A stretch of DNA of 29,083 nucleotides from a virus, in the IMG/VR virus record IMGVR_UViG_3300030102_002392, positions 1 through 29,083 of that record. One strand, given 5' to 3'. Under the pieces are notes generated by a model, which made no database searches, was not told the DNA's origin, and was given only the letters and a program-made list of their open reading frames with translations. The position numbers and the translations under genes are program-made. Each line of letters starts with the position of its first letter. The first letter of the stretch is position 1. Positions 4,896 through 29,083 of the stretch are shown here, piece after piece.

Positions 4896-4898
4896 TAT

Positions 4899-5543
4899 TT
4901 ATGCTCCCTGTATGCCATACAAAGAAAATACGCCTTGATCAAAATTACCACTTGCAAAATAATTAAATAATCTAATTCCGTTAACTGTGCTTGTTTGTGG
5001 TAATACACCACTTCCAAACATTGAATTATAATCGTTACCGTTTGTACCAGTTGTATTCATAAAACTACAAAAACTATATTTTGTGCTATCGCCTAGATTA
5101 TAAAAATATATATAACCATTTCCTGTAAAGTTAAAGTTTGTACTGTAACCACCTAAAAACCTAATTTTACTATCACCAGTGCTTTTAATTTCCACAAACG
5201 AAGGATCTGTGTTGTTACTTTGTAAAGCGTATTCATAAACATTAGCAGTTTCAACCACACCACTTTCATAAAGTCTAATTCCTGCAACATCATTATTTGC
5301 ACTAGATTGTACATTTGCAAATGTTAAAAGGTGTACATCATAATAAGTTTCTTTAATAGAAGTGAAATCTATTGTTGCACCACCTGACGCATTAATTGTT
5401 TCGATCAATTCTAAGTTACCAAACAAAGACCATTTATTATCTCTAACTAAATCATAAATATCTTTAGGTTTAAAAATACCATTATTATTTCCAAAACTTT
5501 GATCTGGGCTCTCTGGTATGTAAGAAAATTCGCTAGTACTCAT
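4899..5543 (-). CDS. Fibre-like tail protein, A-type paralogue 2
   Basis: 214 residues, the longest type of the set. Residues 1-45 form a linker with NNGIFKPKDIYDLVRDNKW, matching NTGLYTPSDILQLTKDGSW in the A-type protein at 6587-7198. Only A-type members have this extension, so it may anchor the group to the tail tip or to each other (inference). The remaining 165 residues are a beta-rich domain with the shared pattern IDF..., Y(D/E)VxLxxFxN, RL/RFS, NxYEYA and the terminal GVFSLYGI. There is a stretch rich in N, S, T and G, as in adhesive phage proteins. It starts the second A-B-C block. Confidence 0.65.
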   Translation of the reverse strand: MSTSEFSYIPESPDQSFGNNNGIFKPKDIYDLVRDNKWSLFGNLELIETINASGGATIDFTSIKETYYDVHLLTFANVQSSANNDVAGIRLYESGVVETANVYEYALQSNNTDPSFVEIKSTGDSKIRFLGGYSTNFNFTGNGYIYFYNLGDSTKYSFCSFMNTTGTNGNDYNSMFGSGVLPQTSTVNGIRLFNYFASGNFDQGVFSLYGIQGA

Positions 5544-5544
5544 A

Positions 5545-6060
5545 TCAAGTAATCCTGTAAAGTGTAAATGTACCCGAATTTATATTATCTGCATTGTAGT
5601 AGAAAAAAATACCGTCACTTGAACTAGCTACAGAGTGCAACCCACCACCCTGTACTCCAATTAATAAACTTCCACCTGTTCTGTTTGCAGTTTCATTAGT
5701 AACAAAACTGAACGATGAACTTGAATAAAAATTATATAGGTAAAATATACCGTTCATTGTTTGGCTTGTACCTGTACTATTTCCATAATTAGAAGTTTGC
5801 CAAAATGATATGTTTGAATTTCCAGAATTTTGAGTACTTGTATCAGTTCTTAAGGCTCTATATGCATAGTCATAATTAGAAGTTGTATCGGCACTACCAC
5901 TTTTTGTTACTCTCATATAGAGTTGTCTGTTTGCCGTATCGGGTGCTACATTACTTACTGCAACCATATAAACTGAATCATCGTTAATTCCAGTTAAAGT
6001 TACGCTAGCCACTGCACTTGAAACTGTTTCTGTTGCTACTTGAACTAAATTCCCTGCCAT
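5545..6060 (-). CDS. Fibre-like tail protein, C-type paralogue 1
   Basis: 171 residues, beta-rich. It starts MAGNLVQVATETVSSAVASV-TLTGI, aligning with the other C-type copy (3856-4377). It has the shared SNYDYAYRALRTDT (partner: ANYDVAGKQLRTNT), IGVQGGGLHSV, and a C-terminal SGTFTLYRI that departs from the usual LYGL. The ATG at 6060 overlaps the stop of the B-type gene by one base. It closes the first A-B-C block and is followed two bases later by the A-type gene of the second block. Function inferred as receptor-binding or tail decoration. Confidence 0.65.
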   Translation of the reverse strand: MAGNLVQVATETVSSAVASVTLTGINDDSVYMVAVSNVAPDTANRQLYMRVTKSGSADTTSNYDYAYRALRTDTSTQNSGNSNISFWQTSNYGNSTGTSQTMNGIFYLYNFYSSSSFSFVTNETANRTGGSLLIGVQGGGLHSVASSSDGIFFYYNADNINSGTFTLYRIT

Positions 6061-6590
6061 TAGTCAACCCTCAACCCGTAAGTTTTTATACGACCACTGT
6101 TAAATGGTCTTGAATTAGTCTCAAATAAATTAAAACCAGTATTTTTTGCTTGTTCTGGTAATACACCTATCATTTTGGCATTTCTGTGTAAATTGTTATA
6201 ATTTGTACTGCTTTGTGCTAATACAAAAGTATGCGTTGAAGAATTTGCAGGATTAAATATATAGGCTACACCACTTTGCGTTTCGGGGGCTTGGTCTGTA
6301 TTTACACCAAAAAGCCTTCTCATACTAGTTTGACCTGTTTGACTTAAATTGCCAACTGATTGGTCACTCCTCATTTGTTCAACTGCATGTTGATAATTAG
6401 GTGTAACAATAACTCCACCAGCAGAATTTAAAAATCTAAATAATATTTCTGTTTGTGTAGTTCCTACAAGTGAAATACCATTTGCTACAATTTTGTAAAT
6501 ATCGAAATCATCAGAAAATACATCTTTAATAGTTATTGAACTTACGCTTGATGTTATTTCAGTTTGGTTTATTAATCTTAAATTGCTCAT
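6060..6590 (-). CDS. Fibre-like tail protein, B-type paralogue 1
   Basis: 176 residues, beta-rich. Compared with the second B-type protein it shares SSITIKDVFSDDFDIYKIV, FRFLNSAGG, PNYQHAVEQM and IGVLPEQAKNTGFNLF, and it ends SGRIKTYGL. It begins with an ATGA overlap on the stop of the A-type gene and ends with a TAATG overlap onto the C-type gene. The three genes of the block are therefore likely to be made in coupled amounts, perhaps as a hetero-complex (inference). No enzymatic motif seen. Confidence 0.65.
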   Translation of the reverse strand: MSNLRLINQTEITSSVSSITIKDVFSDDFDIYKIVANGISLVGTTQTEILFRFLNSAGGVIVTPNYQHAVEQMRSDQSVGNLSQTGQTSMRRLFGVNTDQAPETQSGVAYIFNPANSSTHTFVLAQSSTNYNNLHRNAKMIGVLPEQAKNTGFNLFETNSRPFNSGRIKTYGLRVD

Positions 6591-7198
6591 ATTTCTTTCA
6601 CCCCATATAATTTTGCACTTCCACTTGTTAATGTACCAGTTAATATTCTAAAACCATTTATAGTTTCAGCAGTTTGATATACACCACCACCATAAGTCAT
6701 ACGATAAGCACCATTTAGATTTGTAGTACTGTGTTGATTTAAAGAACTAAACTTTGAGCTATCTAGTAAATTATATAAATATACAAAACTGTTAAAACTA
6801 CTTGTGCTTGTATTTGTATAGGCATCAGTTTGAATAGTACTAGCACCTGTACTTCTTGGGTTGTTAAATGAGCCACTTGATATAACCCTTACACCTGCAT
6901 ATTCGTAAGCAGTTGAGCCCGCCTCAAAAGTTGCACCATTATCATTAGAAAATCTGTAAAGGATTTGTGATTGTGAAGTTGTTACTAAATCAATTATATG
7001 CACTAAATAAACTTCAAAAGGATTATTTTCTAAATTAATAAAATCTATTGCGTTTGGGCTACCACTAACAACTTGTTCTTCAATAAATTGTAAACTACCA
7101 CCCCAACTGCCGTCTTTAGTTAGTTGTAATATATCACTAGGTGTATATAAACCTGTATTCTTTTTTACATCATTTGGTTGCGTACCTAAGTAAGCCAT
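6587..7198 (-). CDS. Fibre-like tail protein, A-type paralogue 1
   Basis: 203 residues. The N-terminal 30-40 residues carry the A-type linker (MAYLGTQPNDVKKNTGLY, then TPSDILQLTKDGSW). The LGTQPNDVKKNTG stretch resembles linkers found in front of small phage tail-fibre proteins. The rest is a beta-rich domain ending in SGSAKLYGV, equivalent to the LYGL ending of its paralogues. SD-like GGAGT precedes the ATG. It is the first of the six-gene set after the tail-tip genes, so it may be the unit that contacts the tail tip (inference). Confidence 0.65.
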   Translation of the reverse strand: MAYLGTQPNDVKKNTGLYTPSDILQLTKDGSWGGSLQFIEEQVVSGSPNAIDFINLENNPFEVYLVHIIDLVTTSQSQILYRFSNDNGATFEAGSTAYEYAGVRVISSGSFNNPRSTGASTIQTDAYTNTSTSSFNSFVYLYNLLDSSKFSSLNQHSTTNLNGAYRMTYGGGVYQTAETINGFRILTGTLTSGSAKLYGVKEI

Positions 7199-11875: not shown

Positions 11876-12203
11876 CGGCTAGGTCGCCTGTACCTCCAAT
11901 ACCATTTAGATTATTTAAAGCAAGAAATATTTTATCTACTATTGTTGAGTCTTTTTCATAGAGCATATTTATTGCGTCATCATCTAACTTTGGCTCAACA
12001 ACTGAAACTTTTAACAACTCTCTTTGATAATCGAAAGCGTCTGTGTCTTCTGCGTTGACGAGCCGACCTAATTTTATTTGTGTTGCTTTTGAAATGCCTT
12101 GTACCAATATAGTTTTATCCCACTCGTCTATATAGACTTCTTCTGTAGGTACTGTTGGTAAACTAGCCAAATCTTCTAGCGTAAGTCGTTTTTTATCACT
12201 CAT
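11865..12203 (-). CDS. Tail assembly chaperone, G protein
   Basis: 112 residues, acidic and helical, lying between the tail-tube genes and the tape measure, the standard place for the lambda gpG-type chaperone. It begins SDKKRLTLEDLASLPTVPTEEVYIDEWDKTILVQGISKATQ, contains AINMLYEKDSTIVDKIFLALNNLNG and ends GDLADQF on a TGA stop. Its last codons form the frameshift site that gives the longer G-T product. Together G and G-T keep the tape measure soluble and recruit tube subunits, as known for lambda and HK97-like phages. The start ATG follows AAGAG at ordinary spacing. Confidence 0.85.
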   Translation of the reverse strand: MSDKKRLTLEDLASLPTVPTEEVYIDEWDKTILVQGISKATQIKLGRLVNAEDTDAFDYQRELLKVSVVEPKLDDDAINMLYEKDSTIVDKIFLALNNLNGIGGTGDLADQF

Positions 12204-12211
12204 GTTAACTC

Positions 12212-12622
12212 TTAATGTGTTCCACGAGTTACTGCGCCTGAAACTTGTAGGTCGCTTGAAAATGCCACAACATCGCCTACTGGTGAAGAGATAGCATAGT
12301 TAGTCATAATGCACTCGCCTGTATATTTGATTTTACCAGAGCCTGTTCCCTCTGGGCTATATTCAAAAGATAAGGTTGCAGCCTGTCCGACTACTGCGCC
12401 AAATATTGCGTCTGCAGTTGCGTCCCATACTCCACCAAGAGAAATGGTTGCGTCCTTAAGACCTGCAATATATGTTTTGTTATCTGCACCTAGCGTGGTT
12501 GTTTCCGCAACGTCCGCTGTTTCAGGAAAGTCAACAGTATTTACATAAGTTGATATATCGGTAAGTGATCCACCAGAGTTATCTAGTTTGAATACACTAT
12601 CTTTACCATGTACAAATGCCAT
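12212..12622 (-). CDS. Tail tube protein, short paralogue
   Basis: 136 residues with strands and the pattern MAFVHGKDSVFKLDNSGGS, DISTYVNTVDFPETADVAET, TTLGADNKTYIAGLKDATIS, GGVWDATADAI and a C-terminal SSPVGDVVAFSSDLQVSG. This is the layout of the phage major tail protein fold. It has AGGAGA before its ATG. It is a paralogue of the 238-residue protein immediately upstream, sharing the opening MAFVHGKDSV and much of the core. It lacks the C-terminal extension, so this copy is probably the main tube subunit. Product would stack as hexameric rings around the tape measure. Confidence 0.8.
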   Translation of the reverse strand: MAFVHGKDSVFKLDNSGGSLTDISTYVNTVDFPETADVAETTTLGADNKTYIAGLKDATISLGGVWDATADAIFGAVVGQAATLSFEYSPEGTGSGKIKYTGECIMTNYAISSPVGDVVAFSSDLQVSGAVTRGTH

Positions 12623-12632
12623 ATTTGTTCTC

Positions 12633-13349
12633 CTATCCTATTCTTCCAAAGCCAACAATACATGCGAAACTAGGGTTAGTTCCACTAATTGTATAGTTAA
12701 CTCTTAGGTATCTATTTATTGTTGTTCCACTTGCAACCTCGCTTACTTGTGAGCCTGCAGCCGTGAAATTTGTAAAAGTTACAAGATCAACATATGTTGA
12801 ATCATCTGAACTATGTTGAATCTTTATTGTCGCAGTTGGTGTAGAAGTACCAGATACTGAAGATACTATAGCTATTGCACCACCACCATTTGCAGTAGAT
12901 GATGAATTATCTGTAGCAGTTGAGTTACCTGTTGTAGTTATTGTCGCATTATCTAATACTAAACCATTGAATAGACCTGCGTTAGACTGTATGTCTATTG
13001 AAGTAGCAACTACATCGCCTACTGGACTAGATTGCCCATAAGCAGTTACTGGACCAATTCCAAAGAAAATACTTTTGCCGTCTGTGATTCCGTCAGCACC
13101 AATGCAAATACTTGTGTCAGTAGATGAGCCAAGTAATGGTTGTATTATGCCGTCAGCAGTTGCGTCAAACATACCAGTTAAACTAACTGTTCCGTCTTTA
13201 TCCCCTGCAATATAATTTTTATCATCATTACCAAAAGCGGTTGTTTCGGCAATATCAGCAGTTCTTGTAAAGTCTACGTTGTTTAAATACTGACTGATAT
13301 TACTTGAATTTAAAAATATTACTGAATCTTTACCATGTACAAAAGCCAT
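12633..13349 (-). CDS. Tail tube protein, long paralogue with extra domain
   Basis: 238 residues. Residues 1-135 match the short tail-tube gene that follows (VDFTRTADIAETTAFGNDDK, NYIAGDKDGTVSLTGMFDAT, SSPVGDVVA). Residues from about 135 to 238 are an added beta-rich Thr/Ser domain (NATITTTGNSTATDNSSSTA, then ATIKIQHSSDDSTYVDL and NRYLRVNYTISGTNPSF) of the kind that decorates tail surfaces. GGAGGTAGATA stands before the ATG. The Shine-Dalgarno lies inside the 12-codon gene upstream and the start overlaps its stop (TAATG). It may be a tube subunit with surface domains or a specialised minor ring (inference). Confidence 0.75.
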   Translation of the reverse strand: MAFVHGKDSVIFLNSSNISQYLNNVDFTRTADIAETTAFGNDDKNYIAGDKDGTVSLTGMFDATADGIIQPLLGSSTDTSICIGADGITDGKSIFFGIGPVTAYGQSSPVGDVVATSIDIQSNAGLFNGLVLDNATITTTGNSTATDNSSSTANGGGAIAIVSSVSGTSTPTATIKIQHSSDDSTYVDLVTFTNFTAAGSQVSEVASGTTINRYLRVNYTISGTNPSFACIVGFGRIG

Positions 13350-13387
13350 TATCTACCTCCACAACAACCGTTACCACAACAATCCAT
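13349..13387 (-). CDS. 12-residue Cys/Gly micropeptide (possible leader)
   Basis: Encodes MDCCGNGCCGGR. It starts on a TAATG overlap with the 25-codon gene and ends on a TAATG overlap with the long tail-tube gene. Its GGAGGT codons double as the Shine-Dalgarno of that tail gene. The twin CC pairs are striking, but so short a frame may be only a translational bridge that delivers ribosomes to the tail gene. GGAGGTAAAAAATA also precedes its own ATG, inside the 25-codon gene. Confidence 0.4.
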   Translation of the reverse strand: MDCCGNGCCGGR

Positions 13388-13464
13388 TATTTTTTACCTC
13401 CGCCTCTTCTTCTGCGTCTTCTTCTGCTACCACTTCCAGAGCCGTAACTTCTTCCGTAACCCAT
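13387..13464 (-). CDS. 25-residue Gly/Arg-rich basic miniprotein
   Basis: Encodes MGYGRSYGSGSGSRRRRRRR followed by GGGKK: a Gly/Ser half and a run of seven Arg. It starts on a TAATG overlap preceded by GGAAGAAGAA and ends on another TAATG. The composition resembles protamine-like or RG-rich nucleic-acid-binding tails, so it may bind DNA or RNA, or be packaged with the genome (inference). Its place between connector and tail-tube genes would suit a virion protein. Support comes from the two exact junctions and the extreme composition. Confidence 0.6.
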   Translation of the reverse strand: MGYGRSYGSGSGSRRRRRRRGGGKK

Positions 13465-13703
13465 TATTCTTCTTCCTTTTCTTCGTACCATGCCTCGTTT
13501 TCAGGTGTGTTTGGGTCATCAGCAATGTAATGACCTTTCTCATTTCTAGCACGTTTTAAATTTTCGTTTAAATCAGCTTTTGCAATAACTCCCATGTCTT
13601 TGAGTTCTTTCCAAGTTTTATTAGAAAAGCCGTCTTTTTGTAAAAGGTCGCCTATTTCATACCTTTTATCTTTATGATCGAATCCTATTTTTACTTCAAA
13701 CAT
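13464..13703 (-). CDS. Small protein of the head-tail region, unknown
   Basis: 79 residues, strongly charged. It reads MFEVKIGFDHKDKRYEIGDL, LQKDGFSNKTWKELKDMGVI, then a basic helix and an acidic tail EAWYEEKEEE. The RYEIGD...LxKxGFSNKTWKELKDMGVI part resembles small phage proteins of unknown function found beside tail-terminator genes (it may be an SH3-like/adaptor fold). One-base overlaps join it to the genes on either side, so it is part of the connector operon. No catalytic motif. The terminal EEE is part of a recurring junction sequence described in the findings. Confidence 0.6.
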   Translation of the reverse strand: MFEVKIGFDHKDKRYEIGDLLQKDGFSNKTWKELKDMGVIAKADLNENLKRARNEKGHYIADDPNTPENEAWYEEKEEE

Positions 13704-14110
13704 TATGCTATTACCTCTACTATAAATTCTGCACCTAAGTAATCTATACTGTTAACAGTATACACGCCAACTTCTTTTGCCTCCACTACTCTACAAGAAT
13801 TTGCAGAACCACCTAAAGTTACGTCTGATTCTATCTGTGCTTTTACAGAACTTGCACCAGTACTCGCTAAATATCCGTCTAGTGTTTCTTGGCTATCTTG
13901 TGCGTCAACTCTTGATACATAAATAAATATTGGTATCTCGTACTTGTCAGCACCTCTCTGTATAGTTGTATCATACTCTATAGTTTCTACAACTCCAACA
14001 ACTGCAGTTGGTGGCTCAATAAAGTCTGGTACAAAGTTATAAACAATTAAAGAAGAAATATTACCTAAGTTAGTTCCTATACCATTTCTAATTGAAGTTA
14101 AACTAGCCAC
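13703..14110 (-). CDS. Probable tail terminator / neck protein
   Basis: 135 residues, alpha/beta: ASLTSIRNGIGTNLGNISSL, VYNFVPDFIEPPTAVVGVV, then IEYDTTIQRGADKYEIPIFI, YVSRVDAQDSQETLDGYLAS and EVGVYTVNSIDYLGAEFIVE. The order Ile-rich helix, P-P-A-V-V-G strand, Y-x-I-P-I strand and L-D helix is that of tail-terminator-like proteins (HK97 gp10 neighbour, lambda gpU-like). These cap the tail and join it to the head. The start is GTG, 8 bases overlapping the previous stop (GTGGCTAG), with AGGTAGGAT upstream. Assignment rests on pattern and position. Confidence 0.65.
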   Translation of the reverse strand: MASLTSIRNGIGTNLGNISSLIVYNFVPDFIEPPTAVVGVVETIEYDTTIQRGADKYEIPIFIYVSRVDAQDSQETLDGYLASTGASSVKAQIESDVTLGGSANSCRVVEAKEVGVYTVNSIDYLGAEFIVEVIA

Positions 14111-14633
14111 TTATCCTACCTTTTTTAAATTCTCTCTCTATTTCTTTTACTGCTACTCTTGTAGCACTTGCTCTCTTAACTCTAGTCTTTTTTTCAGCAA
14201 TTAGGAAGAAAGGAACTAAAGGTGTACCCTTTTTGCCTATTGATCTTTGAACTGCATAAGGGTTTAATCCTTTTGCCTCTGCCCATGGTTTAAGTTTCTT
14301 TATTGGTGGATAATGAGGTTTACTTCTTGTATAAGGTTTTGTTAGCTTTAATTTACCACTAATCTTCTCATCACCATGTACGTACTTTGCGTAACTTCTT
14401 GATGAATATATTTTTACAGACTGTGGTAGACGTCCTCTAGTTTGTATTCTCTGTACGTGTATAGACCTAGATAAACTACCACTAAACTTTGGTGTTTCTT
14501 TTTGTGCTTGTTTTCTTATTATCTGCCCTTGTGTTCTCATTAAGTTTCTTATTGGCTTTGCAGACATATTCGCTAGATCCAGGCGAGTTTTTAATTTATC
14601 TACACCTTTTATTTCAAATCTTGTATCAGCCAT
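14103..14633 (-). CDS. HK97 gp10-like tail completion protein
   Basis: 176 residues, very basic. FEIKGVDKLKTRLDL, PIRNLMRTQGQIIRKQAQKE, TPKFSGSLSRSIHVQ, VKIYSSRSYAKYVHGDEKIS and PFFLIAEKKTRVKRA form the standard HK97 gp10-like sequence, with SGxLxxSI and YAxYVHxG. In known phages these proteins lie at the head-tail junction and are needed to complete tails. Its start overlaps the connector stop (TAATG). The region KLTKPYTRSKPHYPPIKKLKPW, a Pro/Lys-rich loop in the middle, is longer than in many homologues. Confidence 0.82.
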   Translation of the reverse strand: MADTRFEIKGVDKLKTRLDLANMSAKPIRNLMRTQGQIIRKQAQKETPKFSGSLSRSIHVQRIQTRGRLPQSVKIYSSRSYAKYVHGDEKISGKLKLTKPYTRSKPHYPPIKKLKPWAEAKGLNPYAVQRSIGKKGTPLVPFFLIAEKKTRVKRASATRVAVKEIEREFKKGRISG

Positions 14634-15277
14634 TAAAGAACATTTCCAACAAGATTTTGCCTGCGATAGCCTTTCAATAGTTCTTTAGCGTCTGGGTCCA
14701 TTTTGTTAAATAGTTCTATAGTTCCTGTTTCATCATTACCAAACACATTAAATGGTGTATCTTTACGCTTAAATAATCTAAGAGCTTGTATTAACGTTGC
14801 TTGTTTGATTGCGTCTGGTACTCTTGAAAAACCAAACTTAGCAGTTACTTGCACATTATTAATAATGCTTGGATCAAATCTTTCAGAACTTCTTGTATTT
14901 AATATTCTTATTTCGCCGTATGGCTCGAAATAACTTGTACCACCTGCGTCTGCAATTAATTTAGGATTAGTTGGTCTAAGTATAAAATCTGTATTGATTG
15001 TTAATGTTTTATCGTAGCTACCGTCATCAGTAGTGTCAGTTTTTACAATAAGTCCAGTTGTTGTAGAAATATCTGGAACTTCTAAATATATATTGCTGAC
15101 TGGTGTAAATGTTTTTGCATTTGCAGTTGAATCTTGATAAAAATACCTACCACAAACTTTATCTATCTGCCTACTGGCTGCGTTTATGGCGTTGTCAATG
15201 TTATTATCTTGCCCACTTCCACTAATGCCGATGTAGGTTTTTAAATCGTCTTTATCTACATATTGGTCGTGAGCCAT
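14633..15277 (-). CDS. Head-tail connector (gp6/gp15-like)
   Basis: 214 residues. It opens with YVDKDDLKTYIGISGSGQDN, then NIDNAINAASRQIDKVCGRYF, the helical start of phage head-tail connector proteins. A long beta insert follows, then VQVTAKFGFSRVPDAIKQAT and LIQALRLFKRKDTPF, the closing helices seen in the gp6-like family. The family forms a ring between portal and tail. A GTAGGTAAT lies before the ATG, and the gene overlaps the gp10-like gene by one base. Confidence 0.85.
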   Translation of the reverse strand: MAHDQYVDKDDLKTYIGISGSGQDNNIDNAINAASRQIDKVCGRYFYQDSTANAKTFTPVSNIYLEVPDISTTTGLIVKTDTTDDGSYDKTLTINTDFILRPTNPKLIADAGGTSYFEPYGEIRILNTRSSERFDPSIINNVQVTAKFGFSRVPDAIKQATLIQALRLFKRKDTPFNVFGNDETGTIELFNKMDPDAKELLKGYRRQNLVGNVL

Positions 15278-15284
15278 TTATTAC

Positions 15285-15473
15285 CTACTTAGATTTATTC
15301 TCTGCAGGTGCCTTAGCTTTTTTACCTATACCCCACTCTTTAGCTTGTGCGTCAGTAATTTCTTGTCCTTTACGACCAAGTAATTTACCTTTTGCCCAAC
15401 CATTAGGAAGACCTTTTGCAGATTCTTTTACTTCACCTGCGTCATTTATGTAAACATCTTTTGCTAATTTCAT
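15285..15473 (-). CDS. Small basic protein downstream of capsid, unknown
   Basis: 62 residues from the ATG at 15473 (MKLAKDVYINDAGEVKESAK and GLPNGWAKGKLLGRKGQEIT). It then reads DAQAKEWGIG and ends in a Lys/Ala tail. GAGAGGAAAAA stands before this ATG. An upstream in-frame ATG would start inside a stem-loop and has no ribosome binding site, so I reject it. Small proteins with GLPNGWAKGKLLxxKGxxIT-type text often follow capsid genes and can be capsid or head accessory proteins; family not recognised with certainty. The hairpin between it and the capsid gene may lower its expression. Confidence 0.6.
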   Translation of the reverse strand: MKLAKDVYINDAGEVKESAKGLPNGWAKGKLLGRKGQEITDAQAKEWGIGKKAKAPAENKSK

Positions 15474-15491
15474 TTTTTCCTCTCTTTGATC

Positions 15492-15523
15492 TATCGCACC
15501 CGAACTAATAGACGAGTGCGATA
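15492..15523 (-). other. Stem-loop between capsid gene and next gene
   Basis: TATCGCAC and GTGCGATA pair over 8 bp, extended by three pairs (one wobble) inside, with a loop of about 10 bases. It starts 15 bases after the capsid stop. There is no T-run after the stem on the minus strand, so it is more likely an mRNA-stabilising or attenuating hairpin than a full terminator. Confidence 0.55.
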
Positions 15524-15537
15524 AAATCATAACTTAA

Positions 15538-16785
15538 TTATAAGTTTGTTATAGAACAGAAAGCAGTTGCTCTATAGATAGGAAGTCCTACCCTTACTTT
15601 TGCTTTCATAACCATAATATCTTTAACAAAGTTTTCATCATGTGAATCTGACATTGAAACTTCCATACCTTGTCTTGCGACTAAGTGTATAGCTTGTCCG
15701 CCACCAAATACACCGACTACTGCAGTTCCTGCCGGTCTTGTTGTATCGGCAATGACTGGTAATCCCCATAGGGATTGAACTACGCCATTTCCAAATTGAC
15801 CTGCACCAACGAATAGTGGATTTAATGAACCACTTGTTGTTACTGCGTTAACTTCTGTTACAACTTGATACCAATCGCTAGGGTGCATAATGATTGCGTC
15901 AGGTTGTAAGAAACTATCTTTTTGAATTTCTGTGATAGCCTCGTAAAACTGTCCAATTCTCTTTAGGTTTCCAGAGAAACTAGAGAAATCGAAAGTGTTA
16001 ATTCCAGACTTATTAAGAATACCAGTTAAGTTTGCACCTGATCCGGATCCAGCCATAATCTGGTCGGTAAGTGTTAAGTTAACCATAGTTCTTAGTCTTG
16101 AATCTATGTAACCTTGAACTGTTGCCACGTCTGCAAGTAATTCTTCTGTTACAGGTAAGAATCCACCAATTTTTTTAATGTCTTCTGTTCTCTCTGTAAA
16201 TGCTAATGCACTTTCACCAAGAGCAGAACCTTCAGCAGTTGCTGCCGCATTATTTGTAAATGTGGTTTCTTCTAAGTACTTGTATTGATAAGAATCAGTT
16301 GTAATTGTGTCAATTAAGTCAAGAACATTTTGTGGATCTCTTTGTGCAGATTGTACGAGCAAATCTGATCGTGTTACTGCAGGTGGATATCCAGTTTCTG
16401 TAAGAGTTGTTTTAAACTCATATCTTGGATCAAACTTCAATTCAGAAGTGATACCTTTTTGTCCCTCGTTCATGAAGGCGTTGTATGCTTTAGATTCCAT
16501 TAAAGAATCGCCTAAACCTTTAGCCTCTTCTTTATCTTCACCGTGTATGCTTTTAGATTCGACCTTTTGGCTTTCCTCTACACCTTTTTCCATTGCCTCT
16601 TTTTCAGCTTGAAATTTTTTGGCAACTTTGATGTCTTCAACAAGTGTTGACATCTTCTCATTACGATTGGTCCATTCTTCGAGCTTTTGAGCGTCCATGT
16701 GCTTTGGATCTACATCAGCAAACTCTTTTAAAGTACCCTCTCTTAATTCAAGAAGTTCTTGTTCCATATTTTTAATATCTGACAT
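15538..16785 (-). CDS. Major capsid protein, HK97 fold
   Basis: 415 residues. Residues 1-105 are a charged coiled coil (MEQELLELREGTLKEFADVD through QAEKEAMEKGVEESQKVESK), the delta domain that acts as an internal scaffold and is removed by the prohead protease. The rest matches the HK97 family. It has the LVQSAQRDPQNVLDLIDTIT start, EETTFTNNAAATAEGSALGE, the spine SDSHDENFVKDIMVMKAKVR and the closing VGLPIYRATAFCSITNL. GGAAGAAG lies before the ATG. It follows the protease gene by 15 bases, as usual. Expected to be the most abundant virion protein. Confidence 0.94.
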   Translation of the reverse strand: MSDIKNMEQELLELREGTLKEFADVDPKHMDAQKLEEWTNRNEKMSTLVEDIKVAKKFQAEKEAMEKGVEESQKVESKSIHGEDKEEAKGLGDSLMESKAYNAFMNEGQKGITSELKFDPRYEFKTTLTETGYPPAVTRSDLLVQSAQRDPQNVLDLIDTITTDSYQYKYLEETTFTNNAAATAEGSALGESALAFTERTEDIKKIGGFLPVTEELLADVATVQGYIDSRLRTMVNLTLTDQIMAGSGSGANLTGILNKSGINTFDFSSFSGNLKRIGQFYEAITEIQKDSFLQPDAIIMHPSDWYQVVTEVNAVTTSGSLNPLFVGAGQFGNGVVQSLWGLPVIADTTRPAGTAVVGVFGGGQAIHLVARQGMEVSMSDSHDENFVKDIMVMKAKVRVGLPIYRATAFCSITNL

Positions 16786-23798: not shown

Positions 23799-24161
23799 TT
23801 AAAGACCAAAATTCTTTTTTAACTGCTTTATATACTCGTGGCGTTCTTCAGGTGTTTTGTTGTTCCAATCTTCGTTCTCTCGATCACTAGCTAAATCTTC
23901 TACTATTGGGTCAGAAAATACTAATTCTTCTGATACAACACCTGTATTTAGCTTATACATATACAAATCGGATTTATGTTGACAACGTTCTAATTTACAT
24001 TTTTCACCAATGTATCTAGTCTTTGCGTATTTTTCTTCGTGTTCTTTATTAAGTTCACTTATGCGATTTCTTGCAGACAAACCAGTTTCAGCTATGAGAT
24101 CGAGTACACAATGCCACCTACCGTCACTTAAAATCTGTTGTATAGTATCTGCGTAACTCAT
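23799..24161 (-). CDS. Winged-helix-like protein, unknown
   Basis: 120 residues from ATG 24161, which overlaps the methyltransferase stop as ATGA. An ATG 24 bases upstream lies within that gene and I reject it. The first 40 residues (SYADTIQQILSDGRWHCVLD, LIAETGLSARNRISELNKE) look like a winged helix: ILxxGxWHC, then a helix-turn-helix with SARxRISEL. Several phage regulators and small DNA-binding proteins have this form. C-terminal residues are charged, with RCQHKSDLYMYKL. It follows the methyltransferase directly and may regulate it or assist it. No catalytic residues visible. Confidence 0.6.
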   Translation of the reverse strand: MSYADTIQQILSDGRWHCVLDLIAETGLSARNRISELNKEHEEKYAKTRYIGEKCKLERCQHKSDLYMYKLNTGVVSEELVFSDPIVEDLASDRENEDWNNKTPEERHEYIKQLKKNFGL

Positions 24162-24778
24162 ATTGTTTGTAATATCTCTCTGCACAATTCTTTAGGCAGC
24201 TTTGCTTTTTCATAAGAGCTTTCAATACCCTGCGTTCCTGTTCTCGATCCTCTAGGCGCACTAACATGACATGGGTCACCATTTTTACAAATTGGTTTTG
24301 GTGTCCAGTCTAAGTTAGTCCATATATCTGTTGGTTTCATACGTTCTTCACCGTACTGACAATACGTTACAGTCTTGCGTGGTATGTCTTGCATAATGTC
24401 AATCTTACGTAATTTACCTCTAGGATTTTCTATAAAAAAGAAATCGGGTCCAAGATAATCTATTATCTCAATAGTTCGTGCAATGATTCGTAAGCCATGC
24501 TCTGCCTCTTTTGTTTTTGGCGTATGGTCTTTGTTCCAATGATGTCCAATGCTTGAAACACTAAAGTACGTGCAGGGTGGACTTGCCCATACAACATCAA
24601 AACGTGGTAGACTTTCGTACTTAAAATCTAAGATGTCGCATATATAATCTATTTTTGCAACTTGTTCTTTTGTTTTAAGTTCTTTACCACTGTCAAGTGT
24701 TGTTGTAACATAATCAAACTCATCTTCTGCTATTTCAGAAAATGTACAAGATCCAGCAAATAGCTCGAGCAATCTCAT
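24158..24778 (-). CDS. Compact DNA cytosine-C5 methyltransferase
   Basis: 206 residues. Motif I is LELFAGSCTFSEIA (4-17), motif IV is WASPPCTYFS with the catalytic Cys69, motif VI is FFIENPRGKLRK (ENP in place of the common ENV) and the next block is YCQYGEERMKPTDIWTN (139-155). It transfers methyl from S-adenosylmethionine to C5 of cytosine in DNA. It is much shorter than usual cytosine-5 methyltransferases (over 300), with almost no target recognition domain. This points to a short or relaxed target such as a dinucleotide. It lies in the early region with a glycosyltransferase about 3.7 kb upstream. No restriction nuclease is seen, so it is likely for self-protection or hypermodification. 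ATGA overlap upstream. Confidence 0.85.
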   Translation of the reverse strand: MRLLELFAGSCTFSEIAEDEFDYVTTTLDSGKELKTKEQVAKIDYICDILDFKYESLPRFDVVWASPPCTYFSVSSIGHHWNKDHTPKTKEAEHGLRIIARTIEIIDYLGPDFFFIENPRGKLRKIDIMQDIPRKTVTYCQYGEERMKPTDIWTNLDWTPKPICKNGDPCHVSAPRGSRTGTQGIESSYEKAKLPKELCREILQTI

Positions 24779-25002
24779 CTCTTATTGCCTCTTTTATACC
24801 AACCTGCAGACAAAGCCTGTTGCATAACTTCTTCTGGTATTGCAATAGCGTTTTCTGGCGAATTTGTTTTGTGTATTATAAATACTTTTATTCCGTCAAG
24901 AAAACCAAACTGACCCTCAATAGTTTCTACACCTGTTTCTAAAATATTAAACCACATAAGTTTATTCTCATTGGCTTGCCACATGCCCTCGTTATCACTC
25001 AT
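24775..25002 (-). CDS. 75-residue protein, unknown
   Basis: From ATG 25002 (MSDNEGMWQANENKLMWFNI, LETGVETIEGQFGFLDGIKV). Then come FIIHKTNSPENAIAIPEEVM and a basic end. The ATG overlaps the stop of the membrane-protein gene by 8 bases (ATGAGTGA). The longer frame from 25092 would run on top of that gene and I reject it. Mixed alpha/beta, no Cys and no membrane segment. It overlaps the methyltransferase start by four bases, so it is probably expressed with it. Function unknown. Confidence 0.55.
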   Translation of the reverse strand: MSDNEGMWQANENKLMWFNILETGVETIEGQFGFLDGIKVFIIHKTNSPENAIAIPEEVMQQALSAGWYKRGNKR

Positions 25003-25207
25003 TGCTAAACATGTTTTCAGATGTAAGCTCTTCGCCGTCTTGTAGTCTTTGGTAAAAGTCTGTATTGATATACTCTTGATCTTCAAACTCAAACCCTAAG
25101 AGCTTTGCTACCCATACTGCAACTTCACTAAGTAAAGCCCCTAATACAAGTATTCCAATAAAACCCATTAACACAATAAATACGTCCGGGTTATCGTATT
25201 CTCTCAT
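24995..25207 (-). CDS. Small single-pass membrane protein
   Basis: 70 residues with one clear hydrophobic segment (about 9-37, VFIVLMGFIGILVLGALLSE) and an acidic cytoplasmic or periplasmic tail (GFEFEDQEYINTDFYQRLQD). Start ATG 25207 with AGAGAAAGGACA upstream; the start overlaps the 42-codon gene's stop by four bases. In the early block, so perhaps a superinfection-exclusion or host-takeover membrane protein (speculative). A holin is unlikely because the lysis genes lie elsewhere. Confidence 0.65.
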   Translation of the reverse strand: MREYDNPDVFIVLMGFIGILVLGALLSEVAVWVAKLLGFEFEDQEYINTDFYQRLQDGEELTSENMFSNE

Positions 25208-25332
25208 TTTTTGTCCTTTCTCTTTTTTAGTAATTGTTCTATATTATCTTTAACATCTTCAGCAGAATTAATATCAGAAATATCTTTGCGTATTTCGTTA
25301 CCGTCTAAATCAGTAAATACAATTTCAGGCAT
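25204..25332 (-). CDS. 42-residue protein, unknown
   Basis: Encodes MPEIVFTDLDGNEIRKDISD, then INSAEDVKDNIEQLLKKRKD and KK. A beta hairpin-like opening followed by a charged helix. It begins on TAATG overlapping the 103-residue gene's stop and ends in TGA that overlaps the next ATG. The last codons (AGAAAGGACAAAAAA) double as the ribosome binding site of the following gene. No family recognised. Confidence 0.6.
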   Translation of the reverse strand: MPEIVFTDLDGNEIRKDISDINSAEDVKDNIEQLLKKRKDKK

Positions 25333-25643
25333 TAGAAGGGTACCTCTGCGCCGTCAATAGCTAAATCATGTTCTATGTCTGCTATCTCAACATCATGTTC
25401 TAAAGAAACTAGATATTCCAGGATCTCTTTCAAGAAAAAACGTTTTTCGTCATACCTAGCAAATGCTATATCAGACCAGTTATGTATGCTAACTCTTTTG
25501 TTAACTTCGTTTTTTTCCATTTCGTCTTTTGTCTTCTCTATCAAAGTAGATAAGACTTCTTCTGCACTAGGGTAATCTTTAAACACTCGATCTTGTAAAG
25601 GTTTATATTTTACTCTACGTGTATTTGTTTTAAATTCGCTCAT
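25332..25643 (-). CDS. 103-residue protein with acidic, Phe-ending tail
   Basis: Basic N-terminal half (FKTNTRRVKYKPLQDRVFKD), helical middle (EEVLSTLIEKTKDEMEKNEV, EKRFFLKEILEYLVSLEHD) and an acidic C-terminus ending AIDGAEVPF. The final acidic stretch with a hydrophobic last residue resembles the C-terminal tip of single-stranded DNA-binding proteins (usually DDDIPF), which recruits partner proteins. Without an OB fold, this would be a mimic or a small partner (inference). GAGAGAGGAAAAAAC precedes the ATG. An operator-like sequence lies 20-37 bases upstream. Confidence 0.5.
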   Translation of the reverse strand: MSEFKTNTRRVKYKPLQDRVFKDYPSAEEVLSTLIEKTKDEMEKNEVNKRVSIHNWSDIAFARYDEKRFFLKEILEYLVSLEHDVEIADIEHDLAIDGAEVPF

Positions 25644-25663
25644 TGTTTTTTCCTCTCTCTCTA

Positions 25664-25680
25664 ATTTTAAATCTTAGATA
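25664..25680 (-). promoter_or_regulatory. Operator-like site D with -10-like box
   Basis: On the minus strand TATCTAAGATT (25670-25680) is a 10/11 match to the palindrome AATCTWAGATT. It is followed directly by TAAAAT (25664-25669), then the start of the 103-residue gene 20 bases on. The layout parallels site C (28347-28362). Part of it lies inside the end of the 56-codon gene, so the match could be chance. Confidence 0.45.
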
Positions 25681-25837
25681 CGACTATTTTGCGCCCATAA
25701 GCAGGGTTTTCTAAAAAACAAAACTTACAGATTGCGTCATATTCTTCTGTGTTTGCGTTAAAAAGAATATGTGCAGTTTTTCTATGTAAAGGGCGATTAC
25801 AGTTATAACAGTTGCCCTCTATGTTTGGGTTACTCAT
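25667..25837 (-). CDS. 56-residue zinc-ribbon protein
   Basis: Encodes MSNPNIEGNCYNCNRPLHRK, TAHILFNANTEEYDAICKFC and FLENPAYGRKIVVSKI. Two Cys pairs (C-x2-C at 10 and 13; C-x2-C at 37 and 40) make a zinc ribbon of common shape. Start three bases after the stop of the upstream gene. The second pair is followed by a basic end. Possible nucleic-acid-binding early gene; function unknown. Two clean Cys pairs with ordinary spacing make a real gene likely. Confidence 0.78.
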   Translation of the reverse strand: MSNPNIEGNCYNCNRPLHRKTAHILFNANTEEYDAICKFCFLENPAYGRKIVVSKI

Positions 25838-25840
25838 TAT

Positions 25841-26227
25841 TTATACCTGATTAAAGGCACTATAATTATGCCTTACACCGTCAGCGAATTGCTTTGCAGA
25901 ATCATAATCAACATCTACATCATTATCATCTACAATTTGAACAGTAATTTTATACTTTGCACCATTTGAAAGTCTAGGCAAACTTACAAGATTTAAATTA
26001 TATTTTAAGTTGTGATAAACCGGGTTGTCCATTGTATCAATAGTTTTATAACCATAGTGATCTAAAACAATTGGTATGTATTTGTTGTCATACTTATAAT
26101 GTGGAACATTATTGTCATCAACATAAATTGGTTTACTGACTGTGTCATTGTCATTATATTTCCATGCGTTATGTTTCTTTACTAAATCTTTTTTAGAAAC
26201 ATTTGCATAATGTTTTGTTTTTTTCAT
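25841..26227 (-). CDS. Early protein of unknown function
   Basis: 128 residues from ATG 26227. A longer frame from 26260 would start inside the -10 box of the promoter, so it is rejected. AGAGAAAGGACAGAAA precedes the ATG. The protein is highly charged and Asp/Lys/Tyr-rich: KKTKHYANVSKKDLVKKHNA, PIYVDDNNVPHYKYDNKYIP, then VLDHYGYKTIDTM and KYKITVQIVDDNDVDVDYDS. No domain recognised. It is the first gene under a strong promoter with the shared operator. Confidence 0.6.
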   Translation of the reverse strand: MKKTKHYANVSKKDLVKKHNAWKYNDNDTVSKPIYVDDNNVPHYKYDNKYIPIVLDHYGYKTIDTMDNPVYHNLKYNLNLVSLPRLSNGAKYKITVQIVDDNDVDVDYDSAKQFADGVRHNYSAFNQV

Positions 26228-26259
26228 TTTCTGTCCTTTCTCTAAACAGTTATACAACA

Positions 26260-26298
26260 ATATTAGGCCACTTTTGTAATATATGTCAATCTTAGATT
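26260..26298 (-). promoter_or_regulatory. Strong promoter with palindromic operator (site B)
   Basis: On the minus strand: AATCTAAGATT (26288-26298), TTGACA (26284-26289), an 18-base spacer ending GGCC and TAATAT (26260-26265). The operator overlaps the -35 by two bases, as in site A. mRNA start about 25 bases before the ATG at 26227. The gap between 26261 and 26306 holds only this. Confidence 0.82.
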
Positions 26299-26306
26299 AA
26301 AGTATT

Positions 26307-26597
26307 TTATAAATAAATTTTAAAGCCATTATCTAAAGAAGTTAGAAAATGTAACAAATCTTCAGCGTCTGGTAGCTCTATATATGCTAAATCTTTACGA
26401 GAGGTAATAACTGAAACTTCAAACTCATTATTTAGATTTAAGACAATAAAATATAAATCATCTTCATATTTAAAAGCAAGTCCACCTTGTGTATCTACCA
26501 TTGGTAGTACTTCTTCTAAATCTAGTTTGTTTAGTTCGGGGTATTTGCTTAAATAAAACGCTACTGCTAAAGCACCCCAGTTTACTTCATTTATCAT
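26307..26597 (-). CDS. 96-residue protein, unknown
   Basis: Reads MINEVNWGALAVAFYLSKYP, ELNKLDLEEVLPMVDTQGGL, AFKYEDDLYFIVLNLNNEFE, VSVITSRKDLAYIELPDAED, LLHFLTSLDNGFKIYL. Alternating strands and helices, acidic, with no Cys or membrane segment. It sits just before promoter B and ends the unit read from the right. ATG 26597 follows the previous stop by two bases. Not recognised. Confidence 0.6.
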   Translation of the reverse strand: MINEVNWGALAVAFYLSKYPELNKLDLEEVLPMVDTQGGLAFKYEDDLYFIVLNLNNEFEVSVITSRKDLAYIELPDAEDLLHFLTSLDNGFKIYL

Positions 26598-26599
26598 AT

Positions 26600-26866
26600 C
26601 TATATATTACTATTCTTCTTTGACTTTTTCCTTTTATACTTCTGAATATCTAATTCATACCACCTATCAGTAATAAACATTAATTCTTCTACTAGTTGTA
26701 ATAAAATTTTTTGTTGACGTTTATATTTTAATTCATCTTTTTTATCTTCTGTTTTAGCCCAGTGTTCTGTTAAGTTAACTAGTAAATCTGTTTTTGAATT
26801 AATTAAATTTTTTACACAAAAATAACAATCTTCAATAAAGTTTTTATGTTCAACATAACAAGTCAT
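26600..26866 (-). CDS. 88-residue helical basic protein, unknown
   Basis: Mostly helical with two Cys near the start (ENFIEDCYFCVKNLI-type C-x2-C) and a very basic end (YKRKKSKKNSNI). The ATG overlaps the replication-protein stop as TAATG. The middle (KYKRQQKILLQLVEELMFIT) suggests a helical bundle. Possibly a replication or DNA-binding accessory, given the position after the HTH replication gene; family not recognised. Confidence 0.55.
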   Translation of the reverse strand: MTCYVEHKNFIEDCYFCVKNLINSKTDLLVNLTEHWAKTEDKKDELKYKRQQKILLQLVEELMFITDRWYELDIQKYKRKKSKKNSNI

Positions 26867-27600
26867 TATTTTTCCTTTTCTGCTTTACAAAATCTACAAT
26901 GAAAAATTACATCAAGATCAACCCAACCGTGACCCTCTTTTTCGCAATCTCTTTGTTTTGGCGGTTTATCTTTTTCGTACATCTCACCAAGTAACGTCCA
27001 GTTTTTAGATAATGCAAAAGGCGTCAGCGTGATCTTAGGCCATTTCTTTTTGTAGATAAATACTCTCTCTTTTATTTCTTCTGAAGTTACATCAATCTCT
27101 GACAAGTCTTTAGCAACTTTATTAAAAGCAGATATTTCGTTTTTGGTTTTTGGTGTCCACAAGTGTTCACATAAAGCTAAATATATTTTTCCTTTATCTG
27201 AATCTTGCTTGTAAGTATGACTTTGGTTAAATGGCTTTGGTTTGTGTGTCATATCTGAACTACCCCCCTGTTCATATTTGGTATGGGGTGGGGTGTCAGA
27301 TTTAAAAGCAGGGTTCAATTTTAAGATATAGAGATTAGAAGTTTGCCCTTTATCTTCTAAGTAGCGTTCTTTTACTTCGATAGCACCAATGTCTTTTAAT
27401 TCTTTGATCGCTCTTTTTACTGATGAACTAGATTTATTACATTTAGTTCCAATAGTGGCTATTGAGGGCCAACATGTACCGTCATCTTTGTCTGCAAATC
27501 TGTATAATGCGGAATATACACGAAGTGCATTATCAGATACGTTAGATTCAATCAGCCACTCTGGAACAATAGAAAAATAAAACTCTGAAACAATTTGCAT
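26866..27600 (-). CDS. HTH replication-initiator-like protein
   Basis: 244 residues. The N-terminal 110 are a winged helix of the kind in phage replication proteins (DnaD/O-like): FSIVPEWLIESNVSDNALRV, YSALYRFADKDDGTCWPSIA, TIGTKCNKSSSSVKRAIKEL, KDIGAIEVKERYLEDKGQTS. The middle is variable. Residues 145-205 are helical (EISAFNKVAKDLSEI, FALSKNWTLLGEMYEKDKPP). The end, CEKEGHGW...FHCRFCKAEKEK, looks like a small zinc site. It probably opens the origin or loads a helicase. No free Shine-Dalgarno is visible; a small hairpin stands just before the ATG. Confidence 0.72.
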   Translation of the reverse strand: MQIVSEFYFSIVPEWLIESNVSDNALRVYSALYRFADKDDGTCWPSIATIGTKCNKSSSSVKRAIKELKDIGAIEVKERYLEDKGQTSNLYILKLNPAFKSDTPPHTKYEQGGSSDMTHKPKPFNQSHTYKQDSDKGKIYLALCEHLWTPKTKNEISAFNKVAKDLSEIDVTSEEIKERVFIYKKKWPKITLTPFALSKNWTLLGEMYEKDKPPKQRDCEKEGHGWVDLDVIFHCRFCKAEKEK

Positions 27601-27601
27601 T

Positions 27602-27621
27602 GAAGAAGTTTATTCTTCTTC
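27602..27621 (-). other. Small hairpin before the replication gene
   Basis: GAAGAAG and CTTCTTC form a perfect 7-bp inverted repeat with the 6-base loop between them, ending one base before the ATG at 27600. The GAAGAAG arm is the only Shine-Dalgarno-like sequence nearby, so the hairpin could limit translation. Confidence 0.4.
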
Positions 27622-28077
27622 TGCGACAATTTCTGTTTTTTCTAAGTAGCTAGATAACCAAGCGTCTGTGTCATATAATTCTATACCAACACCCATACGC
27701 ATGGCTGCTCTTTTTAAACCGTCAGACATGCACTCTTTAATTCTCTGTCCGTTGTTTTGTACTTTGTTTGGGTTGTCATGGAAAAATGGCTTATCACACA
27801 TGCCGTAATCTTCTCTTGTAATTAAATTACCGTCAACTGTTCCTGTCAATGTAACTTTAATACCTGTTACAAAACTTCTTGATACGCCGTTTACATCTTC
27901 GATCTTGTCATAAACAATATCACTTGTTGTTATATCTAAATCGGGTATCAATGCAATTAACTTTTGAGTTACTTGCGTATGCTCTACATAATCAATATCG
28001 CCAAACCCTTTATTAACTTTTTTTACAAAAGTTTTATTCCATGGTTTGCTTATTTGAATTTGCGTAGCTCTATTCAT
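27610..28077 (-). CDS. Probable Rad52-like single-strand annealing protein
   Basis: 155 residues. Features are FGDIDYVEHTQVTQKLIALI, VTGIKVTLTGTVDGNLITRE, NNGQRIKECMSDGLKRAAMR and MGVGIELYD. The run ASDxLKRAAMRMGVGxxL is like the conserved C-terminal helix of Rad52/Sak-type annealing proteins. These promote recombination and repair of phage DNA ends. It lacks Cys motifs and a Walker box. Next to a replication gene. Strong GGAGG before the ATG, with an ATGA overlap with the HTH gene stop. An unnamed actinophage family with the same text is the alternative. Confidence 0.6.
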   Translation of the reverse strand: MNRATQIQISKPWNKTFVKKVNKGFGDIDYVEHTQVTQKLIALIPDLDITTSDIVYDKIEDVNGVSRSFVTGIKVTLTGTVDGNLITREDYGMCDKPFFHDNPNKVQNNGQRIKECMSDGLKRAAMRMGVGIELYDTDAWLSSYLEKTEIVAEEE

Positions 28078-28268
28078 TGTTTCCTCCTGTTATCAGTTAT
28101 ACCGACTTCATTTATAAAGTCAGCTATTTCTTTTGCGTCCCATAAAGGTCCACACTTTAAAACTTTTTTTGGTGCAGGTAATTTACCATGATGTTTTAAA
28201 CTAGCTACTTTTTGCCTAGTTACATTCAACATCTTGGCTATTTCTGCAACGCCTACTGGATCAAACAT
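28074..28268 (-). CDS. Small HTH DNA-binding protein
   Basis: 64 residues from ATG 28268, which has AGAAAGGAAGAAA directly upstream. A longer frame from 28331 would cross the inverted repeat and lacks a ribosome binding site. VGVAEIAKMLNVTRQKVASL and KHHGKLPAPKKV, then GPLWDAKEIADFINEVG, form a MerR/AlpA/excisionase-like helix-turn-helix. The protein is small enough to act as a dimer on a palindrome. Operator site C and an inverted repeat stand right before it, so it may control itself and perhaps sites A, B and D (inference). First gene of the recombination unit. Confidence 0.8.
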   Translation of the reverse strand: MFDPVGVAEIAKMLNVTRQKVASLKHHGKLPAPKKVLKCGPLWDAKEIADFINEVGITDNRRKQ

Positions 28269-28281
28269 TTTCTTCCTTTCT

Positions 28282-28336
28282 GCACAATGGGGGGTTGTAG
28301 GTGCATTTCCATGAGAAAGGACAACCCCCACCGTGC
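28282..28336 (-). repeat. GC-rich inverted repeat in the HTH gene leader
   Basis: GGGGTTGT (ending 28298) pairs with ACAACCCC (from 28321), extended by GCAC/GTGC at the outer ends with a small bulge; the loop is 22 bases. In this AT-rich genome the G/C runs are conspicuous. It ends just before the ribosome binding site. It may be an operator, a leader hairpin or an attenuator. No T-run follows. Confidence 0.65.
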
Positions 28337-28346
28337 TTAATTAATT

Positions 28347-28362
28347 ATTATAATCTTAGATT
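28347..28362 (-). promoter_or_regulatory. Operator site C with -10 box
   Basis: On the minus strand AATCTAAGATT (28352-28362) is joined to TATAAT (28347-28352). No TTGACA-like -35 is at normal spacing (TTGTCT is only 11 bases upstream), so the promoter is uncertain, perhaps activator-dependent. The palindrome is an exact 11-bp copy. Confidence 0.6.
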
Positions 28363-28377
28363 AAGACAATATTTATG

Positions 28378-28467
28378 TTACTCACAATCTGGGCAAACAC
28401 GAGTATTATTTTCGTTCCAGTAAGGGTTTAAACAGTCTTCGCAGTAACTCACGTAAACATCACTCAT
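28378..28467 (-). CDS. 29-residue zinc-ribbon miniprotein
   Basis: Encodes MSDVYVSYCEDCLNPYWNEN, then NTRVCPDCE. Two C-x2-C pairs (9/12 and 25/28) separated by 12 residues form a minimal zinc ribbon. Its ATG overlaps the stop of the glycosyltransferase gene by 8 bases (ATGAGTGA). Only 29 residues, but the Cys spacing is clean. Possibly a partner of the upstream gene or a general small zinc protein. Confidence 0.75.
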   Translation of the reverse strand: MSDVYVSYCEDCLNPYWNENNTRVCPDCE

Positions 28468-29083
28468 TATATTTGTCTACATCTTTTTCTAATTCTTTAT
28501 TTTCTACGTTAGCTAATTTCTGAATCTTCATTTTTATTTTTTTGTTTTGTATTTCTTCCCAGTTTAAATCTTTACGTCTAATTAATTTTTGGTCGAAGTG
28601 TTGCCAGTTAAATTTTATTCTGTGTTGAGGTCTACCATATCTTTTGCTCACTTCAACAACATAAGGCCAAGCCTCTTGTAGTTCTCTCGCCATGCGTAAC
28701 CTACCGTCACCAACATAAAGCTCGTCTGCGTTACCACCTTTCATTTTAAGAGTAGCGTTCTTCTCGATCATAAAAGCATTTATCAAAACAGTACACCAGT
28801 CCTTACTTAGAGCTTGTAGGCATAAATCGGTGTCTTCGTTGTATCTACCTCGCCAACGAAAGTCTAAATCGTTTTTAATAAGTAAGTTACTATATACTCT
28901 GCAGTTCTGATAAAAAGGTTTTTTGTTGTTAGGTGTTACAAAAAATTTATAGTTCATACCACTTATAGCAATGTTTTCGTACCTATCTGTGAATTCTTCT
29001 ACTGCACTTATTCCGACATTACCATTAACAACTATTCTTCTACCGTTCCAGAAATATTTTATATTATGTATGTTGTCATCAAA
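28460..29083 (-). CDS. TET-associated-type glycosyltransferase (5'-truncated)
   Basis: The frame is open to the window edge, so the N-terminus is missing; 207 residues are visible. The visible part begins FDDNIHNIKYFWNGR with a DDN metal/sugar-binding motif. It continues SAVEEFTDRYENIAISGMNY, FDxRWRGRYNEDTDLCLQAL, WCTVLINAFMIEK and MKGGNADELYVGDGRLRMAR. These blocks match what I know of the TET-associated glycosyltransferase (TAGT) family, the GREB1-related group. It is thought to add sugars to oxidised methylcytosine in phage DNA. The C-terminal 50 residues are basic and helical. Naming is by recalled motifs, not a search. A different GT-A-like phage protein is possible but less likely. Confidence 0.72.
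   Translation of the reverse strand, partial: FDDNIHNIKYFWNGRRIVVNGNVGISAVEEFTDRYENIAISGMNYKFFVTPNNKKPFYQNCRVYSNLLIKNDLDFRWRGRYNEDTDLCLQALSKDWCTVLINAFMIEKNATLKMKGGNADELYVGDGRLRMARELQEAWPYVVEVSKRYGRPQHRIKFNWQHFDQKLIRRKDLNWEEIQNKKIKMKIQKLANVENKELEKDVDKYNE

Follow-up and report, generated by a model that had tools for sequence, protein, structure and literature searches.

Do a cytosine methyltransferase and a glycosyltransferase that lie close together in one viral genome act in the same pathway? The window analysed here is the whole of IMG/VR record IMGVR_UViG_3300030102_002392, 29,083 nucleotides, and both genes are found towards its right end. The original prediction was that a C5 methyltransferase, a TET/JBP dioxygenase encoded just past the right edge and a TET-associated glycosyltransferase (TAGT) act in turn on cytosine, giving a sugar-bearing base that resists host nucleases. 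We lean towards another reading, in which the right edge of the window probably cuts through a two-part module for glycosylation directed at DNA. The window would hold part of its catalytic half, the TAGT, and no TET enzyme would supply the acceptor.

The glycosyltransferase at the right edge

The TAGT gene, 28460-29083 on the minus strand, has a frame that is open to the right edge in the open reading frame list; its 207 residues are the C-terminal part of the protein (87-293 of 293), and the N-terminus lies past the edge. The FDDN, RWRGRYNEDTDL, WCTVLINAF and GGNADELYVGDGRLRMA blocks are all readable in the translation. A Pfam profile search of the product gave a match to the TAGT family, PF20691, at E=1.9e-21 and 77.4 bits (cut-off 27.5), and PHROG 842 was matched at 2.7e-20, so that the TAGT-family assignment of this truncated protein, proposed from the letters alone, holds. 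The full-length copy in the twin phage described below (L002:9743-10624), 99% identical to the fragment when this was used as the query, scores 142.9 bits against the same Pfam cut-off. By its sequence and its predicted fold, the window TAGT is a member of PF20691. The TAGT group was reportedly defined in a paper from 2013.

The structure model, made from an alignment of viral-contig rows only, has a predicted GT-A fold with a pLDDT of 89.9. No solved structure was found for the protein by sequence search. The Foldseek neighbours of the model are GT-A enzymes, for example the collagen galactosyltransferase ColGalT1, GnT-I and the wall-teichoic-acid enzyme TarP, and with a TM of about 0.4 they are to be read as generic GT-A matches. 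The active-site residues are strongly conserved in 222-223 homologues: D88, D89 and D170 are present in 100%, E169 in 99%, R164 in about 100% and H240 in 98%. Since the two acidic pairs, DD and ED, are essentially invariant, the enzyme is most likely active.

The TAGT is the head of a run of replication and recombination genes on the minus strand. The next gene downstream, 28074-28331, encodes a predicted small HTH/excisionase-like DNA-binding protein (PHROG 2620, 8.6e-6) and has the same position in the related loci L002 and L003. It is followed by a Rad52/SSAP-like annealing protein at 27610-28077 (PF04098, 6.3e-5, above cut-off) and a replication-initiation O-like protein at 26866-27600 (PHROG 270, 1.5e-22).

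The probable partner gene beyond the edge

What lies to the right of position 29083 can be read from a twin record, G001, the source of locus L002. It is 32,852 bases long and aligns to the window in blocks of 88-97% identity, and its ends share a 92-bp repeat, which implies a circularly permuted genome that is nearly complete. The only part missing from the window ends is the counterpart of G001 12034-15760, about 3.7 kb, which contains the TAGT N-terminus, a 216-aa gene, small ORFs, a lysozyme-like gene and a phosphoesterase-like gene. The gene directly upstream of the TAGT, where a TET gene had been expected, is the 216-aa one (L002:9106-9756), and it overlaps the TAGT, which starts at 9743, by 14 nt. 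As a single sequence its product scores 24.3 bits against Pfam ParB_N, just below the cut-off of 26.3, while the family profile matches ParB structures at 6.3e-13 and the predicted fold is that of ParB (Foldseek 2.9e-6). From profile and model together, we identify it as a ParB_N protein. GERR is the nucleotide motif of ParB CTPase partition proteins; the motif position in the ParB alignment here reads AGHGVV, not GERR. The same ParB_N and TAGT pair is found in L003, L004, L005 and L006. The window phage would thus have its own ParB gene beyond the end of the record, as we infer from the near-identical twin. No TET/JBP domain and no recognisable 2OG oxygenase was seen within several kb of the TAGT in the twin, from which the 3.7 kb of the window phage itself is read.

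The pairing is not a peculiarity of these phages. In three surveys with profiles built here, a partner was directly upstream of the TAGT or fused to it in 181/211 loci, a count in which some loci are near-duplicates and several of those without a partner are contig edges. The figures were 67/81 for viral loci nearest the window type, 73/80 for viral loci near the Kuja/Vibrio type, collected with a second query, and 41/50 for loci in bacterial genomes. The most constant part of the partner is a domain of about 65 residues, 'EWxGMPEF...KTKSIWYP', for which no Pfam family of its own was found. A ParB_N protein usually ends in it, with ParB_N preceding it in 109 cases; in the remaining partner loci the small domain is alone, where it forms a short ORF, lies at a contig edge or is fused to the TAGT. 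As ParB_N was not seen in many of these small-domain loci, the ParB half cannot be essential in general.

In each of the three surveys, an unbiased clustering of the neighbours up to six genes from the TAGT ranked the partner highest. After it came packaging genes, then NDP-sugar epimerase/dehydratase genes, which were near the TAGT in 16 loci and immediately followed it in nine of these, and a nucleotidyltransferase-like family (9 loci), a label taken from the sequence alone. Neither an oxygenase nor a methylase recurred within this distance in any of the surveys.

Acceptor and target of the module

Which base the enzyme would act on depends on what else the phage encodes. When 50 proteins of G001 were scanned against Pfam, 28 families were matched, and the best 25 of these include no 2OG oxygenase, thymidylate synthase or C5 methylase; the three lower-ranked families, judged from the ordering, each have a single weak protein match. 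The TET profile PF12851 gave no match in G000-G003 or in 94 TAGT-bearing records, a result that is weak on its own, because the profile had no positive control and matched nothing anywhere. PF00303, the thymidylate synthase family that includes the dCMP hydroxymethylase of the T-even 5hmC glucosylation pathway, was absent from G001, from G002 and from 41/41 IMG/VR TAGT records tested, so that no sign of a hydroxymethylase route was found in these records. Its only matches were in Kuja and henriette, which both carry a TAGT. Two cultured carriers of a TAGT, Vibrio phages 1.124.O and 1.076.O, matched neither the TET nor the thymidylate synthase profile. Judged by these profiles, the twin genome encodes no recognisable TET or hydroxymethylase from which the acceptor could come, and the glycosylation chemistry is incomplete to the extent that no acceptor-making enzyme can be recognised.

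One alternative is that the TAGT acts in the classical way, on a hydroxylated or hydroxymethylated base that is provided by the host or by a phage enzyme not recognised as such. The TAGT-family enzyme of T6 does use a modified cytosine, namely hydroxymethylcytosine in DNA that already bears a glucose and to which it adds another (PMC13216743). In the Pfam scan, about half of the G001 proteins are without any family, which leaves room for such an enzyme, and the PF00303 gene of Kuja and henriette could be a hydroxymethylase. Against this stand the PF00303 result in the 41 records and the lack of any candidate enzyme that recurs up to six genes from the TAGT in the three surveys, tests that a distant or host gene would escape, and we consider a hydroxylated acceptor unlikely. 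It is also conceivable that the TAGT and its ParB or small-domain partner glycosylate an unmodified base of the phage DNA directly, without an oxidised or hydroxymethylated precursor. This is a doubtful proposal at present, but if true, direct glycosylation would be a widespread one-step system and would explain the 'solitary' TAGTs discussed below.

That DNA is the target of the window module is likely, judging from gene content and from analogy. The first reason is the partner itself, since the same ParB type is also paired with DNA methyltransferases: in L162 a CPPY-type DNA methyltransferase directly follows it, in L214 it is fused to an N6_N4 methyltransferase, and in 29/29 members tested the ParB type matched the DNA methyltransferase family PHROG 498. 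In these pairs and fusions the ParB protein is directly upstream of the enzyme or joined to it, as here, and the enzyme is a methyltransferase instead of a glycosyltransferase. The second is that the TAGT heads the run of HTH, Rad52-like and replication-initiator genes, and the third is the activity of the T6 enzyme on DNA. The DNA-modification role in the original prediction is likely to be right.

Alternatively, the sugar could go to a virion protein, a cell-surface glycan or a small molecule, for example, and not to DNA. This would fit with the collagen, GnT-I and teichoic acid enzymes among the nearest solved folds, and in Vibrio phage 1.076.O the TAGT is situated between the portal and head-morphogenesis genes. 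The fold matches are however the generic GT-A ones, the ParB-type partner is near-constant and is the one that also pairs with DNA methyltransferases, the window TAGT belongs to a replication and recombination gene run, and a characterised member of the family acts on DNA (PMC13216743). We therefore regard a non-DNA target as quite improbable.

In the DNA-directed module that we favour, the ParB or small-domain partner would bring the TAGT to DNA or shape the acceptor site, and the TAGT would transfer a sugar from a nucleotide-sugar donor to a base of the phage DNA. The sugar may then shield the DNA from host nucleases.

The methyltransferase and the meaning of the pairing

The compact C5 methyltransferase is encoded at 24158-24778 on the minus strand (206 aa). 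It matches PF00145 at E=2.9e-6 and 27.4 bits, above the cut-off of 22, and PHROG 757 DNA methyltransferase at 3.6e-25, and its translation shows SPPC, with Cys69, as well as the ENP motif, all of which agrees with how the gene was first described. Its position in the genome is another matter. The blastn alignments of the window to G001 and G002 have a gap at 24162-24951, and neither these two genomes nor L002, L003 and L004 have the methyltransferase at this locus; it was found in the strain fragment L093. The gene on its 3' side (23799-24185, minus strand) has a G001 counterpart that starts at L002:13999, and the one on its 5' side (24775-25092, minus strand) corresponds to L002:13739-14002; in G001 the two flanking genes are joined directly, with overlapping counterparts. 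At other positions, G002 and L004 have different enzymes, a PAPS-reductase-like protein and a Dam methyltransferase. From these comparisons the window methyltransferase is an independent accessory gene, a clean strain-specific insertion outside the TAGT module.

A TAGT-like gene was near relatives of the methyltransferase in 1/61 loci, no relatives of it were found in the first TAGT set, and PF00145 was present in 3/22 TAGT genomes. On strain variation and these low co-occurrences, the methyltransferase and the TAGT were rejected as one pathway. The proposed succession, in which the methyltransferase makes 5mC, a TET/JBP enzyme oxidises it and the TAGT glycosylates 5hmC, has in its favour that the TAGT and the methyltransferase are both in the window and that the Pfam family owes its name to an association with TET, but with a ParB_N gene and no recognisable 2OG oxygenase in the 3.7-kb stretch of the twin, the PF12851 result above, and a methyltransferase missing from the twin and two relatives, the sequence comparisons largely refute it for the twin, and we find it highly improbable in general.

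Comparison with known systems shows what is particular to the pairing. The beta-glucosyl-HMC-alpha-glucosyltransferase of T6/T2 (T6 gp043, YP_010067197.1) shares with the window TAGT the PF20691 family, the GT-A fold, the DD and ED motifs and a similar length. The similarity is remote, 37 bits to PF20691 and E=2.3e-5 to the profile built here, and unlike the window type gp043 has no ParB partner and no match to the partner domain, and it adjoins a thymidylate-synthase-family gene, gp044. In a study from 2026, solitary TAGTs were reported in 288/753 phage genomes, those that lack alpha-GT and beta-GT, and the authors suggest that they are potentially novel transferases (PMC13216743). These homologues are like the window type in that classical DNA glucosyltransferases are lacking. 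ParB is not mentioned in the main text of that study, and no description of the ParB-TAGT pair was found in the literature searched, which was covered in part; relative to the solitary TAGTs, the pairing is an added feature. A row of a ParB_N gene, a glycosyltransferase and a UDP-glucose dehydrogenase is also found in cultured Microbacterium phages (gp83-gp85 of Jayden and relatives, 56 records). The glycosyltransferase, gp84, has no Pfam match and reaches only E=0.096 against the TAGT profile with hhalign, and it is at best a candidate TAGT.

The notable part of this locus is accordingly the TAGT as one half of a conserved ParB-partnered module, and the methyltransferase is an accessory. The exchange of partners with methyltransferases would suggest that the ParB protein is a general adaptor for DNA-modifying enzymes. 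Outside the T-even phages, most TAGTs are without an assigned substrate, and the pairing in the surveyed loci offers a second component with which they can be co-expressed, so that their substrate becomes open to direct tests. If the sugar does go to DNA, the module would provide a widespread protection against restriction for which neither TET nor a recognisable hydroxymethylase is required.

Regions of the window that differ from the twin genome

The window encodes a 711-aa protein at 451-2586, rich in runs of Thr, Pro and Glu, and within its gene the stretch at about 1742-2068 did not align to G001, the near-complete twin genome of this phage. Six genes related to one another, each of about 170-215 aa and with pairwise identities of 23-38%, are arranged in tandem at 3856-7198, and G001 has no nucleotide match to the stretch that holds them. 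Together the six genes may form a rapidly evolving array for tail or receptor-binding proteins.

TAGT variants and the neighbours of the ParB type

Double TAGT glycosyltransferase genes, tandem or fused, were seen at the loci L024, L032, L045, L054, L075 and L080, and might add two sugars successively. Vibrio phage henriette carries a TAGT gene (L014:10070-10819) that is not annotated in the public record. In other phages (L213, L216, L217), PAPS-reductase-like genes adjoin the same ParB type in IbrA/IbrB-like pairs, which suggests a wider adaptor role for this protein.

A cassette in Microbacterium phages

Microbacterium phage Jayden has consecutive genes for a ParB_N protein, a glycosyltransferase and a UDP-glucose dehydrogenase (gp83-85, L215:2956-5158). 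The glycosyltransferase of this cassette is carried by 56 records of cultured Microbacterium phages, and these phages are a ready laboratory model of a cassette similar to the ParB-TAGT module.
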